Virus record (IMG/VR): IMGVR_UViG_3300050139_000027
Span: 1 to 23,449 of that record
Source: a virus
DNA: 23,449 nucleotides
Strand: one strand, 5' to 3'
The notes under the pieces were generated by a model that made no database searches, was not told the origin of the DNA, and was given only the letters and a program-made list of their open reading frames with translations. This document shows positions 1,796-15,772 of the stretch, piece after piece; positions within the stretch are counted from its first letter, which is position 1, and the number at the start of each line of letters is the position of its first letter. A program made the translations under genes and the position numbers.

Positions 1796-4700
1796 ATGGC
1801 CGACGCCTCGACCACCGACGAATCCGAGCCCGACGACCGTCCCACCGGAAGGCCCGGAGCCGAGGACGACAAGGACGCCGCGCGCCCGGTCAGCGATCTT
1901 GAGGCGAACGAGCAGTTCGAGGCCCTGAAGGGCTGGTGGAAGGCCGACGCGGACCATTCCCGCGAGTGGCGGGTCGAGGCGCGCGAGGCTTTCGCCTTCC
2001 GCGCCGGCGAGCAGTGGACGCCCGAGGACAAGGCGCTGCTCGACAGCCGCAACCGCCCGCACATCGTCTTCAACCGCGTGCTGGCGATCCTTAAGGCGGT
2101 CGCCGGCATGGAGATCAATGGGCGGCACGAGATCAGCTTCATCCCGAGGGGCACGCAGGACACCGCCGTCAACGAGCTGCTCACCGCGGCCTCGAAGTGG
2201 ATGGCCGACGAGTGCGACGGCGAGGACGAGGAGAGCCAGGCGTTCGACGACACCTGCACCTGCGGCATGGGGTGGTGCCTATCCGACGATGCGCTCGTTC
2301 GGCTCCCCAATACGCATTTCGCGACGACCCGTCTCTATTCGGGGAGCATTGTTCAAATCGGTCTGGAAAACGGCAAGGAGTTGACCGGAACCCCCAATCA
2401 TCCGGTACTCACGGACATGGGGTGGAAGCGCCTTTGTGATCTCCATGAAGGCGACAATCTTATCAACAGCGCATTTCTCGAACGGATCAACGGGCTCCCG
2501 ATAGAGCAATTCGATCATGTGGAAACCAGACTTAAGGATAAAATAGATGCGTTCCGCGCTGGACGCGAAAGCCTGCGGTGTTCCACGGCCCCCGATGATT
2601 TCTATTCCGACGGAGCCGGAAGCAAAGTCCATATTGTATACGCCGACAGTTTTTTGTTGGACAAGGTCAGGAATGCAATAGCCCTTCGCAAAGTCGATGA
2701 ACTTCTGCTCTCCGGGCGGGATCTTCTTGCGAAGATGCGCGCCTTTTTCTTTTCCAAGACTCATGGTCTGGGCGCGATCTATTCCGCCATATGTCAATCG
2801 ACTTTCAATTGGGTCCATATGCCATTGGCGCAGCCTTTTTCCGACTTCGCTATCGCGCAGAACATGCCCAGCAGCGCGGAGCCGTCTTCTCGCAGTTTCG
2901 GAATGAACCCCATAACGCTCAGCAATTTGGACGGTCGACAAACCTTCTCCGAAGTAGAGCCGAACGAGTTCTTCGATAGGCATAGAGGGCGTCGGCCCGC
3001 CTCGCCACGATCTCATAGTATGACCGGCTCGCCGGAGGCGCAGACAGATCGCGGAAACCGATATTCCAACCTGATCGCTGACTTTTTTGACTGGAAGCCC
3101 CTCCTCGAAATAGAGGCGCGCAAGCTCGGCGGTGCTGACGTTCTTTCTATTTTTGTAACGCAGGTTAAGAGCAGGGTCGTCCGTCCAGTTGAGGGGTTTG
3201 CCGTCCATGATGTGGGGACCTCGTTGGGGTTCTTTGTCGCTGGCGATATTATAACCTCAAATACTGAGTCCCGCATGTCCTACGAGGACGAGCACCAGGG
3301 CCTCTATGTCGAGGAGCAGATCGACCCGAAGGAGATGTACTGGGACCGCACGGCGCGCAAGAAGAACCTCACCGACGCGCGCCGCAAGCACCGGGTCCGC
3401 CGCATGCCGTTCTCCGACGCCGCGCAGCTATTCCCCGGCAAGACGCGCGCCCAGCTCGACGCGGTGTGGGCAGACGAGTCGCTCGGCGACTACCCCACGC
3501 GCACGCTCGAGGAGCGGCGCAAGCGCGACTCCGACAACTCCGGAATCCATCCGTACGACGACACCACCGAGGTGACGATCGTCAACACGCAGTGGATCGA
3601 GAAGGAGCCGTTCTGGCTCGTCGCGGACGTGCAGAAGAACGAGAAGGTCGCGCTGAGCCAGGCCGAGTTCGACCAATTTAAAAAGCGCATGGACACGCTG
3701 CGCAAGACCGTACCGCCCGAGATGGCGGAGCAGTTCGAGGTGCATGCCGTCCGCATGGTCAAGAAGGTCTACAAGAGCGCCTTCTTGGGAGCCGGGCTGC
3801 TGCGCAAGGCGGAGGACGCGCCGATCGAGGGGCAGTTCTCGTGGGCCTGCATAACCGGAGAGCGGGACAACGCGAAGGGGACGTGGTTCGGGCTCGTGCG
3901 CGTCATGCGCGACCCGCAGATGTGGGCGAACAAGTGGCTCTCGCAGATTCTGCACATCCTCAACTCGACGGCCAAGGGCGGCATCCTAGCCGAGGAGGAC
4001 GCCTTCGAGGACCAGCGCGAGGCGGAGAACTCCTACGCTCAGTCCGACCAGATCACCTACGTCACCAAGGGCGCGCTATCAGGGCAGAAGCCGAAGATCA
4101 TACCGAAGCCGGGCGCCGGCGCGGTCGAGGGCTACCTCGGCCTGATGGCGTTCGCGATCTCGTCGGTCAAGGACGTGGTCGGGATCAATCTCGAGCTGCT
4201 CGGCCAGCGCGACGAGAACCAGCCGGGGATCGTCGAGGCGATGCGCAAGCAGGCCGGCATGACGGTGCTCGCCACGCTGTTCGACTCGCTGCGCAGGTTC
4301 CGCAAGATCGTCGGGCGCAAGCGGCTCTACTTCATCCAGAACTTCCTCTCGGACGGCCGCCTGATTCGCGTCGTCGGGACTGACTCGAACGTGCAGGCGC
4401 TTCCTCTGGTGCGCGACAAGACGCTCGGCGAGTATAACGTCGTGGTCGACGACACGCCGACGTCGCCGAACCAGAAGGAGGCGAACTGGGCGATCATCCA
4501 GCCGCTCCTCGTGGTGTTCAAGGACCAGCTCATCGCCAACCCGCAGGTGTTCGGCATGTTGCTCGAATACTCGCCGCTGCCGAACCGCATCGTCGAGGCG
4601 ATCAAGGGGTTCATCGCGCAGCAGCAGCAGGACCCGGACGCGCAGATCGACAAGAAGCTGCAGCGCGACCTCATCGAGTCGAACGTCTCGAAGAACCAGT

Positions 4701-5134
4701 CCACCGCCGAGATGCAGAACGCCAAGGCGGGCGCGTCGCAGGCAACAGCCATGTACGACTTCGCGATGGCGAAGCACTTGCTCGAATCCGGCGACACGAA
4801 CGGGCTCAAGGGCCACCTCGACATGATGGAGGCCGCCGCCAAGATGAGAACCGCCGACGCGAAGGCGCAGCAGGCGTCGGCCGAGGCGGACCACACCAAG
4901 GCCAAGACCGCGCGCGAGATGGTGGGCACCCACCTCGACGTCGCCGCGGCGCACGAGCAGGGGCAGCAGGGGCAGGCCGACCGGCGATCTCAGGTCCTCG
5001 GTGGCCTTATCGACCACCTCACGGCCACCTCCGGCGCGCACCGCGACGTGGCGGTCGCTCACAAGGACCACGTGGCTGCGATCAAGGACGCCAGGACGCC
5101 GATCGCGCTCCCGGCGCCGGCGGGCGGCCAGTGA
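1796..5134 (+). CDS. P22-type portal protein precursor interrupted by an intein
   Basis: The precursor has 1112 residues. Removing residues 161-489 (the intein) leaves 783, close to P22 portal size (about 725). The portal forms the dodecameric ring at the capsid vertex through which DNA is packaged and ejected. Family signatures are NRPHIVFNRVLAILKAVAGM near residue 80, AFDDTCTCGMGW just before the intein, and TESRMSY followed by DPKEMYWDRTARKKNLTDARR just after it, which join into the continuous GMGW-TE motif of this family. The C-terminal 250 residues are helical and rich in Gln, Ala and Lys, as expected for the barrel. The stop overlaps the next gene as GTGA. Production of active portal should need protein splicing. 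Portal identity is confident from motif order. Confidence 0.92.
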   Translation: MADASTTDESEPDDRPTGRPGAEDDKDAARPVSDLEANEQFEALKGWWKADADHSREWRVEAREAFAFRAGEQWTPEDKALLDSRNRPHIVFNRVLAILKAVAGMEINGRHEISFIPRGTQDTAVNELLTAASKWMADECDGEDEESQAFDDTCTCGMGWCLSDDALVRLPNTHFATTRLYSGSIVQIGLENGKELTGTPNHPVLTDMGWKRLCDLHEGDNLINSAFLERINGLPIEQFDHVETRLKDKIDAFRAGRESLRCSTAPDDFYSDGAGSKVHIVYADSFLLDKVRNAIALRKVDELLLSGRDLLAKMRAFFFSKTHGLGAIYSAICQSTFNWVHMPLAQPFSDFAIAQNMPSSAEPSSRSFGMNPITLSNLDGRQTFSEVEPNEFFDRHRGRRPASPRSHSMTGSPEAQTDRGNRYSNLIADFFDWKPLLEIEARKLGGADVLSIFVTQVKSRVVRPVEGFAVHDVGTSLGFFVAGDIITSNTESRMSYEDEHQGLYVEEQIDPKEMYWDRTARKKNLTDARRKHRVRRMPFSDAAQLFPGKTRAQLDAVWADESLGDYPTRTLEERRKRDSDNSGIHPYDDTTEVTIVNTQWIEKEPFWLVADVQKNEKVALSQAEFDQFKKRMDTLRKTVPPEMAEQFEVHAVRMVKKVYKSAFLGAGLLRKAEDAPIEGQFSWACITGERDNAKGTWFGLVRVMRDPQMWANKWLSQILHILNSTAKGGILAEEDAFEDQREAENSYAQSDQITYVTKGALSGQKPKIIPKPGAGAVEGYLGLMAFAISSVKDVVGINLELLGQRDENQPGIVEAMRKQAGMTVLATLFDSLRRFRKIVGRKRLYFIQNFLSDGRLIRVVGTDSNVQALPLVRDKTLGEYNVVVDDTPTSPNQKEANWAIIQPLLVVFKDQLIANPQVFGMLLEYSPLPNRIVEAIKGFIAQQQQDPDAQIDKKLQRDLIESNVSKNQSTAEMQNAKAGASQATAMYDFAMAKHLLESGDTNGLKGHLDMMEAAAKMRTADAKAQQASAEADHTKAKTAREMVGTHLDVAAAHEQGQQGQADRRSQVLGGLIDHLTATSGAHRDVAVAHKDHVAAIKDARTPIALPAPAGGQ
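2279..3208 (-). CDS. Two-HTH Vsr/DUF559-like homing endonuclease encoded antisense within the intein
   Basis: It encodes 309 residues. ATG 3208 is the only start in the frame and has GAGG 10 bases upstream. Residues 24-62 and 78-115 are two similar helix-turn-helix repeats (ELARLYFEEGLPVKKVSDQV and ELVRLYFGEGLSTVQIAERY, each followed by L/R-rich helices and AGH), typical sequence-recognition modules. Residues 165-240 fit a Vsr/DUF559/EDxHD-like PD-(D/E)XK nuclease: Glu167 in GEQKF, Asp194 in YNMDFA, Glu203 in GIEIIGG, then AERIYFILKSGF and MIELL. The usual His after the Glu strand is not obvious. Every codon is the exact reverse complement of an intein codon, and both frames are open. The expected role is cutting intein-free portal genes so that the element spreads. 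Protein identity is well supported; activity is inferred. Confidence 0.82.
   Translation of the reverse strand: MDGKPLNWTDDPALNLRYKNRKNVSTAELARLYFEEGLPVKKVSDQVGISVSAICLRLRRAGHTMRSWRGGPTPSMPIEELVRLYFGEGLSTVQIAERYGVHSETARRRLRAAGHVLRDSEVGKRLRQWHMDPIESRLTYGGIDRAQTMSLGKEKGAHLRKKIPPGEQKFIDFAKGYCIPDLVQQKTVGVYNMDFASGSVGIEIIGGRGTPQAFASSAERIYFILKSGFHMIELLYREPVDPFEKCAVDKIVAFMEITKALPPHVREYRMIGGSGQLLAVFQTDLNNAPRIETGRREMRIGEPNERIVG
3219..3222 (-). promoter_or_regulatory. Shine-Dalgarno of the antisense endonuclease
   Basis: Read on the minus strand, GAGG lies 10 bases before ATG 3208. No other ATG, GTG or TTG occurs in that frame before its upstream stop at 3257-3259, so the site settles the start. Confidence 0.55.
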
Positions 5135-13600: not shown

Positions 13601-14007
13601 GCGAATCGCCCCCCTTGGCCTGCGTCTCGCCCGACAAGATCGACGCCGTCTGGCCGATCGTCGAGCCGATGATCCGGTCCGCGTACGAGGCGGGCGACGA
13701 GATCATGCCGGACGACCTGGTCGACTGGCTCAAGGCAGGGAAGGGGCTGCTCTGGCTCTGCATCAGAGAGAACAAGGTGATCGCGGCGATGACGACGTCG
13801 CTCGAGCGCAAGCGCAGCGGGCTGTGCTGCCGGATGGTGTGCTGCGGCGGCGTGGACATGAACTATTGGCGAGCGTGCGAGGACCGAATCGTGGAATATG
13901 CTAGGGCCGAAGGATGTGTTAAGGTCCGCGTCGAAGGCCGCGTCGGATGGGCGCGCGTCCTGCCCGGCTACAAGGTCGAACGAGTCCACCTCGAGAAGGC
14001 GATCTGA
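13597..14007 (+). CDS. GNAT-like phage protein
   Basis: It encodes 136 residues, translationally coupled to the gene before (ATGA). IDAVWPIVEPMIRSAYEAG is a helical start. LLWLCIRENKVIAAMTTSLE and GLCCRMVCCGGVDMNYWRAC resemble the central strands of a GNAT fold, and EDRIVEYARAEGCVKVRVEG followed by VGWARVLPGYKVERVHLEK resembles its C-terminal half. The acetyl-CoA pyrophosphate loop (R/Q-x-x-G-x-G/A) is not clear, so it may be a degenerate or structural GNAT relative. Five cysteines cluster in the centre. Similar proteins are common beside tail-hub genes of podoviruses. No substrate can be assigned. Confidence 0.5.
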   Translation: MSESPPLACVSPDKIDAVWPIVEPMIRSAYEAGDEIMPDDLVDWLKAGKGLLWLCIRENKVIAAMTTSLERKRSGLCCRMVCCGGVDMNYWRACEDRIVEYARAEGCVKVRVEGRVGWARVLPGYKVERVHLEKAI

Positions 14008-14009
14008 TC

Positions 14010-15122
14010 ATGACCGGCGGCGGCTCACAGACCACAAACCAATCTCAGAGCAGCACGACGCAGCCGTGGGCGGCGGCGCAGCCACTATTGCAGAACCTAA
14101 TCAACAGCTACGGCGGGCAGAGCACCGCAGTGACGCCAGCGCAGACCGCCGCCGCGCAAACGCTATCGAGCGACGCGAGTGGGGTCTCGAGTTACGCCCC
14201 CGACATCAACACCACGCTGCAGAATATGTTCGGCACGAGCACGACTCCGCAAGTCGGTGCGCTCAATACGGCGATGGGAAATCTGAACACGTCGCTTTCT
14301 CCTATTGCCGACCCAAATAATTTGAACCCATATAACACGCCTGGATTCTCAGACGCTCTCAAGACAATGACGTCCGATATCACGAACAACGTGAAGGGCG
14401 TCTATGCCGGTTCGGGACGAGATCCGTCAGGCGCAGGCAGCTTTGCGCAGTCGCTCGGCCGAGGATTGACGCAGGGCGAGGCTCCGGTGATCGCGAGCCA
14501 GTACAACACGAACGTCGGAAACCTGGAGAATGCGGCAGGAGCTTTGAACGCCGGAACCATCAGCGATACCGGCGCGATCACTGGTCAGCAGCAGGTTCCT
14601 ATTTCGAACGCGGCCAGTGCAGTTGGTCTTATTCCAGGTGCCGCCACGGCGGCGACGACCCCAGGTTCGACGCAACTTGCGGCGGCGAACACCGCCTACG
14701 GCCAGCCATACGGCAATCTATCCGCACTTCTGCAGCCCGCCACCGCGCTCGGCTCGATGGGACAACAATCGCAGGGAAGCGGCACATCGACGACGCAGCA
14801 GTCGTCCAGCCCGTTCTCGCAGATCATGGGCGGCCTGATGGGGGGCACCGGCATGCTCTCGAGCATGGGCGCGTTCGGCCCGGCCGGATGGCTGCTCGCG
14901 TCGGATGAGCGCCTAAAAGATGATATTAAAAAGGTCGGAGAATTGCACGATGGGCAGCCTGTGTTCAGGTATCGCTACAAAGGCCAACCGGAGATGCGGA
15001 TAGGTCTATTGGCTCAAGAAACGTTGAAACACAAACCAGATGCAGTCGGTGACATTGGAGCAGGGATGCTTGGTGTTGACTATGCTAGGGCGACCGAGGA
15101 TTCCGCGAGGGCATCAGCATGA
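14010..15122 (+). CDS. Virion protein with short C-terminal S74-like chaperone/autoprotease domain
   Basis: It encodes 370 residues; ATG 14010 lies just after the previous stop, with AAGG about 11 bases upstream. The first 290 residues are rich in Gly, Ser, Ala, Thr, Gln and Asn (TGGGSQTTNQSQSSTTQPW; MGGLMGGTGMLSSMGAFGP), like virion proteins that unfold for ejection. Residues 298-370 begin SDERLKDDIKKVGELHDG and continue IGLLAQETLKHKPDAVGD and LGVDYARA, the pattern of an intramolecular chaperone S74 domain. Ser298 and Lys303 correspond to the self-cleavage dyad of that family. The domain is shorter than in endosialidases, and its DNA is less GC-rich than upstream. The stop overlaps the HNH gene start. 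Internal virion or tail assembly role inferred. Confidence 0.65.
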   Translation: MTGGGSQTTNQSQSSTTQPWAAAQPLLQNLINSYGGQSTAVTPAQTAAAQTLSSDASGVSSYAPDINTTLQNMFGTSTTPQVGALNTAMGNLNTSLSPIADPNNLNPYNTPGFSDALKTMTSDITNNVKGVYAGSGRDPSGAGSFAQSLGRGLTQGEAPVIASQYNTNVGNLENAAGALNAGTISDTGAITGQQQVPISNAASAVGLIPGAATAATTPGSTQLAAANTAYGQPYGNLSALLQPATALGSMGQQSQGSGTSTTQQSSSPFSQIMGGLMGGTGMLSSMGAFGPAGWLLASDERLKDDIKKVGELHDGQPVFRYRYKGQPEMRIGLLAQETLKHKPDAVGDIGAGMLGVDYARATEDSARASA

Positions 15123-15772
15123 CCGCGCATCCTTGCTTGCATGGCCATACTTCTAAGCGGAGGCCGGATGGGAGATGCGTAGAGTGCCGTAGAATTGCAG
15201 CAAAAAAACATTATGCGAAAAATCGAAGCACGATACTCGCAAAAAACAGGAAGTGGGTTAAAGCTCACCCTGATAAAGTGAGAGATCTCCATGCTGCGTG
15301 GAGAAAAAAGAATCCTGGAAGTTCTACTGAGTGGGCGCGCCTAAATCGAGCGCGATACAAGAAAAGCCATAAAAAATGGCGCGACAAGAACCGAGAAAAG
15401 CTTAGGGTGATAGGGCAAGAATATAGAAAGAACAATCCTGTCGTCTGCGCTGCTTATAGAAAACGGTGGAGAGAGAACAATCGAGACCATGCAAGGACTT
15501 TAGTTAGAAATCGGCGCGCGCGAATCGCTAATTCTTCTGGAACCCACACTACGGAAGACGTCAAACGCATATCAGATGCTCAGCTTAATAGATGTGGGTA
15601 TTGCCATGCGTCATTTCGTACTACAACGCCTTGCGTCGATCATATAATTCCTCTGTCAAAGGGAGGATCAAATGATCGAAGGAATCTGCAACTGCTTTGC
15701 GGCTCGTGTAACTCGCGTAAAAACAATTCCGATCCTATTGAATATGCGCGGCGAATAGGGAGGCTTCTCTGA
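15119..15772 (+). CDS. Free-standing HNH homing endonuclease
   Basis: It encodes 217 residues. Residues 6-23 form a possible zinc knuckle (C6-x3-H10, C20-x2-C23). Residues 30-135 are a strongly basic tract built from repeated W/Y-x-K-x-N-P/R-type units, a likely DNA-tracking region. Residues 159-201 are the HNH domain: CGYC, then VDHIIPLSKGGSNDRRNL (catalytic D-H and structural Asn) and LLCGSCNSRKN with the second Cys pair. It is expected to nick or cut DNA and spread by homing. It overlaps its neighbours at both ends (ATGA, TGATG), and its last codons contain AGGGAGG, the SD of the next gene. G+C is low (25 of 60 at 15181-15240), marking recent arrival. Confidence 0.9.
   Translation: MTAHPCLHGHTSKRRPDGRCVECRRIAAKKHYAKNRSTILAKNRKWVKAHPDKVRDLHAAWRKKNPGSSTEWARLNRARYKKSHKKWRDKNREKLRVIGQEYRKNNPVVCAAYRKRWRENNRDHARTLVRNRRARIANSSGTHTTEDVKRISDAQLNRCGYCHASFRTTTPCVDHIIPLSKGGSNDRRNLQLLCGSCNSRKNNSDPIEYARRIGRLL

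Follow-up and report, generated by a model that had tools for sequence, protein, structure and literature searches.

A phage portal intein with a predicted Vsr-like homing endonuclease gene on its opposite strand, and the same layout in other phage inteins

The portal gene and its intein

The window, by which we mean the whole stretch of DNA analysed, is an IMG/VR virus record of 23,449 bases (IMGVR_UViG_3300050139_000027). It encodes a P22-type portal protein in a single frame of 1112 codons (Table 1). An intein occupies portal codons 161-489, from Cys1 (2276-2278) to Asn329, whose codon ends at 3262, and is uninterrupted in frame with the portal. The marks of a cis-splicing Hint intein are present: Cys1, a block B TxNH, a C-terminal Asn and Thr at position +1. 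The ends of the intein match the profiles PF14890 (Intein_splicing, E 4.3e-5) and TIGR01445 (intein_Nterm, E 3.3e-4), both below the curated cut-offs. In an AlphaFold model, pLDDT is mostly 88-97 at the ends and below 50 at residues 141-258.

Table 1. Features of the portal gene, its intein and the antisense gene in the window (positions in window coordinates)
Feature	Position	Strand	Basis or detail
Portal ORF, 1112 aa	1796..5134	+	P22_portal profile match, E 7.6e-99
Portal N-extein	1796..2275	+	160 codons; intein-free phage portals match up to codon 160
Intein, 329 aa	2276..3262	+	Cys1 to Asn329, Thr at +1; profiles and exact empty site
Intein block B, TPNHPVLT	2390..2413	+	Sequence; conserved in family alignment
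Intein blocks F-G, VHDVGTSLGFFVAGDIITSN	3203..3262	+	Sequence and family alignment; AlphaFold pLDDT at least 88 over last part
Portal C-extein	3263..5134	+	Profile match; match to intein-free homologue
Antisense homing endonuclease gene (predicted), 309 aa	2279..3208	-	ATG 3208-3206, TAG 2281-2279; family and structure
Shine-Dalgarno-like GAGGT	3218..3222	-	About 9 nt before antisense ATG; plus-strand reading is intein block F
First HTH domain (residues 26-60)	3029..3133	-	Profile, AlphaFold model
Second HTH domain (residues 78-112)	2873..2977	-	Sigma70_r4 profile, E 3.8e-11; AlphaFold model
PD-(D/E)XK nuclease domain, Vsr/EDxHD type (residues 159-281)	2366..2734	-	Structural matches
Invariant YNxD (Y191, N192, D194)	2627..2638	-	42-sequence alignment
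Dual-coded motif	2597..2611	both	Minus VGIEI (acidic E203; family VAVEV), plus DFYSD (family DFHGD)

Portal genes that lack the insertion are contiguous exactly at the predicted junction. In the portal of Microcystis phage Mae-JY35 the match to the N-extein ends at 3327 and that to the C-extein starts at 3328, and in the intein-free portal of Rhizobium phage RHph_Y1_10 the two matches meet at 28844/28845. The junction aligns as GMGW^TESRM against GMGW^TETRL. The GC content of the intein (0.535) is below that of the exteins (0.69 and 0.66), which fits an acquired element; codon-position GC of the intein does not show clearly which strand leads. The preliminary description had placed an intein with good splicing blocks at these codons, and the profiles, the modelled ends and the empty site all agree with it. 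On these sequence features we assign portal codons 161-489 to a canonical intein, and the portal precursor would be expected to undergo protein splicing.

The profile PHROG 15127, named 'head protein', matches residues 6-156 of this intein (window 2276-2743). The same profile matches inteins in unrelated host genes (portal, terminase and MuF) and can thus mislead annotation. Also present in the window is a free-standing HNH endonuclease gene (15119-15772, plus strand; PF01844, E 1.5e-13) that directly follows a Peptidase_S74-containing ORF (13947-15122) and is probably a second homing element.

A predicted nuclease gene antisense to the intein

The minus-strand gene lies in the codon-aligned antisense register of the intein, with its TAG stop opposite intein codon 2 (CTA). 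The Shine-Dalgarno-like sequence upstream of its ATG occupies the same place in most family members. No promoter-like site for the gene was found in the window, and promoter candidates near one family locus (L074) were not clearly above shuffles. At the composition of the intein, an open frame of 309 codons has a log10 P of about -5 to -7. The window is GC-rich and holds seven further minus-strand open stretches of at least 300 codons, so openness by itself is weak evidence, and these stretches would be in keeping with an antisense ORF that arose by chance opposite a GC-rich coding strand, the intein alone being real. What places the frame beyond chance is family evidence: a conserved protein, a pattern of selection and a layout shared by more than 100 loci.

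The protein product resembles both DNA-binding proteins and nucleases, as the preliminary description had proposed. Its HTH segments match the Sigma70_r4 and HTH_23 profiles. The REase family MTES_1575 profile is matched by seven of nine family members and DUF559 by three of the nine, and a family profile finds 3hrl (a Neisseria nuclease-like protein, E 5e-5) and 3r3p (the homing endonuclease I-Bth0305I, E 1.3e-4). An AlphaFold model made with 42 family sequences (mean pLDDT 82) has two three-helix DNA-binding domains followed by a Vsr-type fold. The top VIA-align match of this model is Vsr itself (1cw0, Z 10.9 over 114 residues at 3.3 A), followed by 1vsr (Z 10.0), 3r3p (Z 9.9) and 3hrl (Z 9.8), and the top Foldseek match is again 3r3p (E 0.012, probability 1.00). 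Thus, both the two HTH repeats and the Vsr/DUF559-like PD-(D/E)XK core of the earlier reading are borne out by profiles and by the modelled structure. We identify the product as a predicted nuclease of the HTH-HTH-Vsr/I-Bth0305I type; such matches indicate the fold, not activity.

Invariant positions in the 42-sequence alignment include Q185, Y191, N192, D194 and E203, and conservation is 90% or more at E167, R220 and G228. Within the E..D..x..H..D catalytic set, E167, D194 and E203 are conserved. Of 41 family members, 33 have a His after the conserved Glu; it is absent from the window copy and from seven relatives. The loss of this residue may have impaired the nuclease of the window. The layout could therefore be functional in relatives while the window nuclease is inactive or decaying and its intein is kept by splicing alone. 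Such decay would also be in line with the distance of the window nuclease from every other member of the family (at most 28% identity) and with a block F that departs from the usual HVYNLQ. Against it, the frame is intact over all 309 codons, an improbable length at this composition, the invariant Y191, N192, D194 and E203 are present, the Shine-Dalgarno sequence is retained, and the same His is missing from relatives. We consider decay of the window copy unlikely, though it is the likeliest of the alternatives.

Family members differ in how many HTH domains they have, from one (in proteins of about 233 aa) to several. At a locus on a Chloroflexi contig (L073, 2812-4125, plus strand) the nuclease is 438 aa long and has additional HTH copies, and several HTH-only profile matches fall in its frame. 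Four loci on IMG/VR contigs (L023, L031, L049 and L051) form a subgroup whose host gene is of unknown function (phrog_37388) and whose C-extein starts with CQRELLPRLDLIG or a similar sequence; in their nucleases, too, no His follows the conserved Glu. In L051 and L052 the Cys1 region appears altered (CSPPRRAYV rather than the usual CVVEGTEVEA), and the N-terminal splice junction is possibly damaged.

The two-strand layout in other phages

A tblastn search of phage records with the window nuclease returned 20 records; in all ten that were examined the nuclease gene is antisense in a minor-head/MuF gene. Scanning IMG/VR with the window nuclease as sole query gave no match, and no close relative of it was found. 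A nine-member alignment was too divergent for pattern scans, and a three-member alignment was used instead, yielding 56 loci from IMG/VR and five from genome contigs. An intein-led search of phages returned 124 records, 63 of them from Salmonella phages; from these 124, twelve further records were taken for analysis, and later another four. The comparison set, mainly nuclease-led, comprises 82 loci, 51 of them at less than 70% identity, with GC contents from 0.41 to 0.70.

In all 82 loci the nuclease gene is antisense inside an open host reading frame, and the codon-aligned opposite frame is open across the whole nuclease gene, whereas the other two registers are usually broken. Clear intein motifs (an N-terminal Cys, TxNHPxLT, GHVYNLQ, and N then C) are found in nearly all. 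A separate intein-led search of IMG/VR located at least 574 related places; the best 80 were taken and gave 65 distinct inteins, every one of which carries an antisense ORF of 237-371 codons with no sense stop, the nuclease motif being found in 62. This sample of the best 80 is biased toward long inteins, so inteins that lost the nuclease would be under-represented in it. No homologue was found in which the antisense frame is broken while the sense frame is kept. The nesting of the nuclease gene antisense within a continuous intein frame, described at first for the window alone, is thus a conserved trait of a family rather than a one-off, and on sequence evidence it is common to at least 100 distinct phage inteins in public data. 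A conserved product across 51 nonredundant loci, at GC contents down to the lower end of the range given above, is difficult to reconcile with a shadow of GC-rich coding DNA.

Host genes are mostly MuF/minor head genes, with minor capsid 2, P22-type portal (the window), terminase and one unknown gene also represented. The annotations of 26 intein-bearing phage records were examined, and the antisense gene is absent from every one, probably because gene-calling programs discard overlapping ORFs on the opposite strand. A search for free-standing copies of the nuclease covered 369 genomes of one class and 400 of one phylum; none was among the strong matches, which were two known loci and one new locus, again antisense in an intein.

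Selection on both reading frames

No close relative of the window nuclease was found, and selection was measured in other members of the family. Among Gordonia phages, changes in the intein middle fall mostly at sense position 1, which is position 3 of the nuclease codons (e.g., counts of 48, 7 and 26 at sense positions 1, 2 and 3), while the exteins have the ordinary third-position pattern. Across 13 independent pairs there were 370, 202 and 627 substitutions at nuclease codon positions 1, 2 and 3 (p 2e-16); the same comparison of N-exteins gave 173, 122 and 481 at sense positions 1, 2 and 3. The pattern in the intein middle is therefore the mirror image of that in the exteins, i.e., the middle evolves as antisense-coding DNA. 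The sense frame has been kept open as well: about 210 sense stops would be expected in the nuclease genes of 43 loci (at TTA, CTA and TCA codons), a number derived from local codon use, and none was seen.

The two frames also meet at the site of initiation. The start codon of the nuclease lies opposite the block F His, and its Shine-Dalgarno sequence opposite the residues that come next in block F; read backwards, a stretch that typically codes for HVYNLQ gives CTGGAGGTTGTAGACATG. The block F His is encoded by CAT in 40 of 49 cases (20.7 expected) and the Leu by CTC or CTT in 33 of 38 (14.5 expected), and a sequence resembling a Shine-Dalgarno precedes the antisense start at 41 of 49 loci. In about ten of the loci counted, the start was picked for its proximity and not from the block F motif. 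Within the nuclease, the codons of the VAVEV motif are frozen beyond what the nuclease frame needs: the second Val is always GTG (43 of 43 sequences; 9.7 expected) and the Glu is GAA in 42 of 48 (22.7 expected). With these codons fixed, the sense strand reads DFHGD, and the intein itself also seems to need this motif.

From these substitution and codon patterns we conclude that both frames are under selection in relatives of the window. We rejected the idea of a chance antisense ORF on the position-specific substitutions together with the conserved fold, with its HTH domains and Vsr core, and give it almost no credence. Far better supported is the reading in which this is a mobile intein whose nuclease is a complete, codon-aligned gene of the opposite strand, not fused between the splicing domains; of this we are highly confident.

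Empty and filled alleles

A query made from the joined flanks of a Salmonella phage minor head gene matched 357 Guernseyvirinae-type records, 298 of which span the uninterrupted junction over most of the query. The remaining listed records match about half of it, as expected with an 816-base intein in between. The empty gene of Ent1 is 1044 nt long and the filled gene 1860 nt. About 300 empty alleles are found in phages of Salmonella and E. coli.

The minor capsid gene of Gordonia phages is occupied at loci L001, L004, L008, L085 and L005, and within one phage genus two inteins of about 50% nucleotide identity sit at the same site, one of them common to another genus. Sedona and Fosterous have exteins about 95% identical and inteins only 50% identical. 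The Sedona intein is 81% identical to that of APunk. APunk belongs to another genus, and its exteins reach only 81% and 73% identity to those of Sedona. On these comparisons, we take the swap as direct evidence that an intein has been transferred at a fixed site.

The antisense protein might instead serve a role other than homing, for example in regulating head genes or in cutting the portal gene of competitors. Two HTH domains and a preference for virion-assembly genes as hosts would suit a regulator, and antisense transcription could in itself repress the host gene. The fold is near that of a known homing endonuclease, however, with conserved acidic residues, and the polymorphism of empty and filled sites and the intein swap at a fixed site also speak against such a role; cutting of rival phages, for its part, is compatible with homing. 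We regard a purely non-homing role as improbable, and return to the mobile intein with an opposite-strand nuclease gene.

Comparison with known elements

In the usual view, inteins become mobile through a nuclease domain in their own frame, which they lose later. Canonical large inteins that carry a LAGLIDADG or HNH nuclease in frame likewise have Hint blocks, a homing endonuclease within the element and fixed insertion sites. They differ from the element in the window, where the nuclease is a separate antisense gene and does not form the middle of the intein protein. An in-frame nuclease intein was rejected for the window since the nuclease is antisense and the sense middle has pLDDT below 50 and gave no nuclease match in a profile search.

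A 2009 NAR account of 'Fractured genes', which PMC12350094 cites, is said to associate Vsr-like nucleases with split inteins. In the known Vsr-like systems the nuclease genes are intronic or lie between the halves of a split intein. Homing endonucleases of the EDxHD/Vsr-like type, such as I-Bth0305I, share the nuclease fold of the window protein and are tied to phage self-splicing elements. Unlike I-Bth0305I and the split-intein nucleases, the gene in the window overlaps an unsplit intein on the other strand and in codon register. A split intein with an intercalated nuclease gene was rejected on the single 1112-codon frame.

A same-strand, out-of-frame HNH gene is known in a non-intein insertion (PMC11855218). 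This ShiLan type is alike in that a homing nuclease is hidden in another frame of an element translated in the host frame; it differs in being same-strand and HNH, with no splicing domain found, whereas the window has an antisense gene of the Vsr type and a real intein. An out-of-frame HNH insertion was rejected for the window on the opposite strand, the Vsr-like fold and the presence of Hint blocks. Antisense homing genes are also known in nuclear group I introns, e.g., I-DsqI (PMC9548176). There, too, the nuclease gene is opposite the host-gene strand within a self-splicing element, but the element is an RNA intron whose sense strand need not encode protein, while in the window both strands are protein-coding. 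PHROG 15127 already contains inteins of this type and names neither the intein nor the antisense gene.

A literature search turned up no account of an intein that is dual-coded with a nuclease gene on its antisense strand. A preprint from 2025 on inteins of actinobacteriophages with 'non-canonical architecture' (bioRxiv 10.1101/2025.01.02.630785, as cited in PMC11855218) may cover part of this ground, for Gordonia phages. The parts, Hint inteins and Vsr-like homing nucleases, are already known; their combination by antisense dual coding appears to be new, with which the preprint may overlap.

Proposed mechanism and implications

We propose that, on the plus strand, the portal precursor would be translated through the intein, whose ends would fold as the Hint splicing domain, excise the intein and join the portal. 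The middle of the intein protein, encoded by the complement of the nuclease gene, would be tolerated as an insert with little structure. On the minus strand, a transcript would be translated from the start opposite the block F His, using the Shine-Dalgarno sequence opposite the neighbouring residues. The resulting HTH-HTH-Vsr-like endonuclease would bind and cleave portal alleles that lack the intein, and the intein would be copied in during repair.

More broadly, dual coding of this kind is probably widespread among phage inteins. Both strands of such an element would encode protein over most of its length, block F would double as the ribosome-binding site and start of the nuclease, the strand of the nuclease that bears the acidic residue would be read in the sense frame as DFHGD, a second conserved motif needed by the intein, and intein and nuclease would be locked together. 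If this is so, few changes in the intein or the nuclease would leave the other untouched, and the locking would account for the absence of copies with a broken nuclease among those found.

An opposite-strand gene is a different route for coupling splicing and homing. Loss of the nuclease frame would be hard without altering the intein, and mobility would hinge on antisense transcription rather than on expression of the host gene. The family also offers a rare example of two long protein-coding genes that overlap on opposite strands and are both under measurable selection. The layout spans very diverse phages, including well-studied phages of Salmonella, E. coli, Gordonia and Mycobacterium, and reveals a family of predicted homing nuclease genes that has been absent from their annotation.
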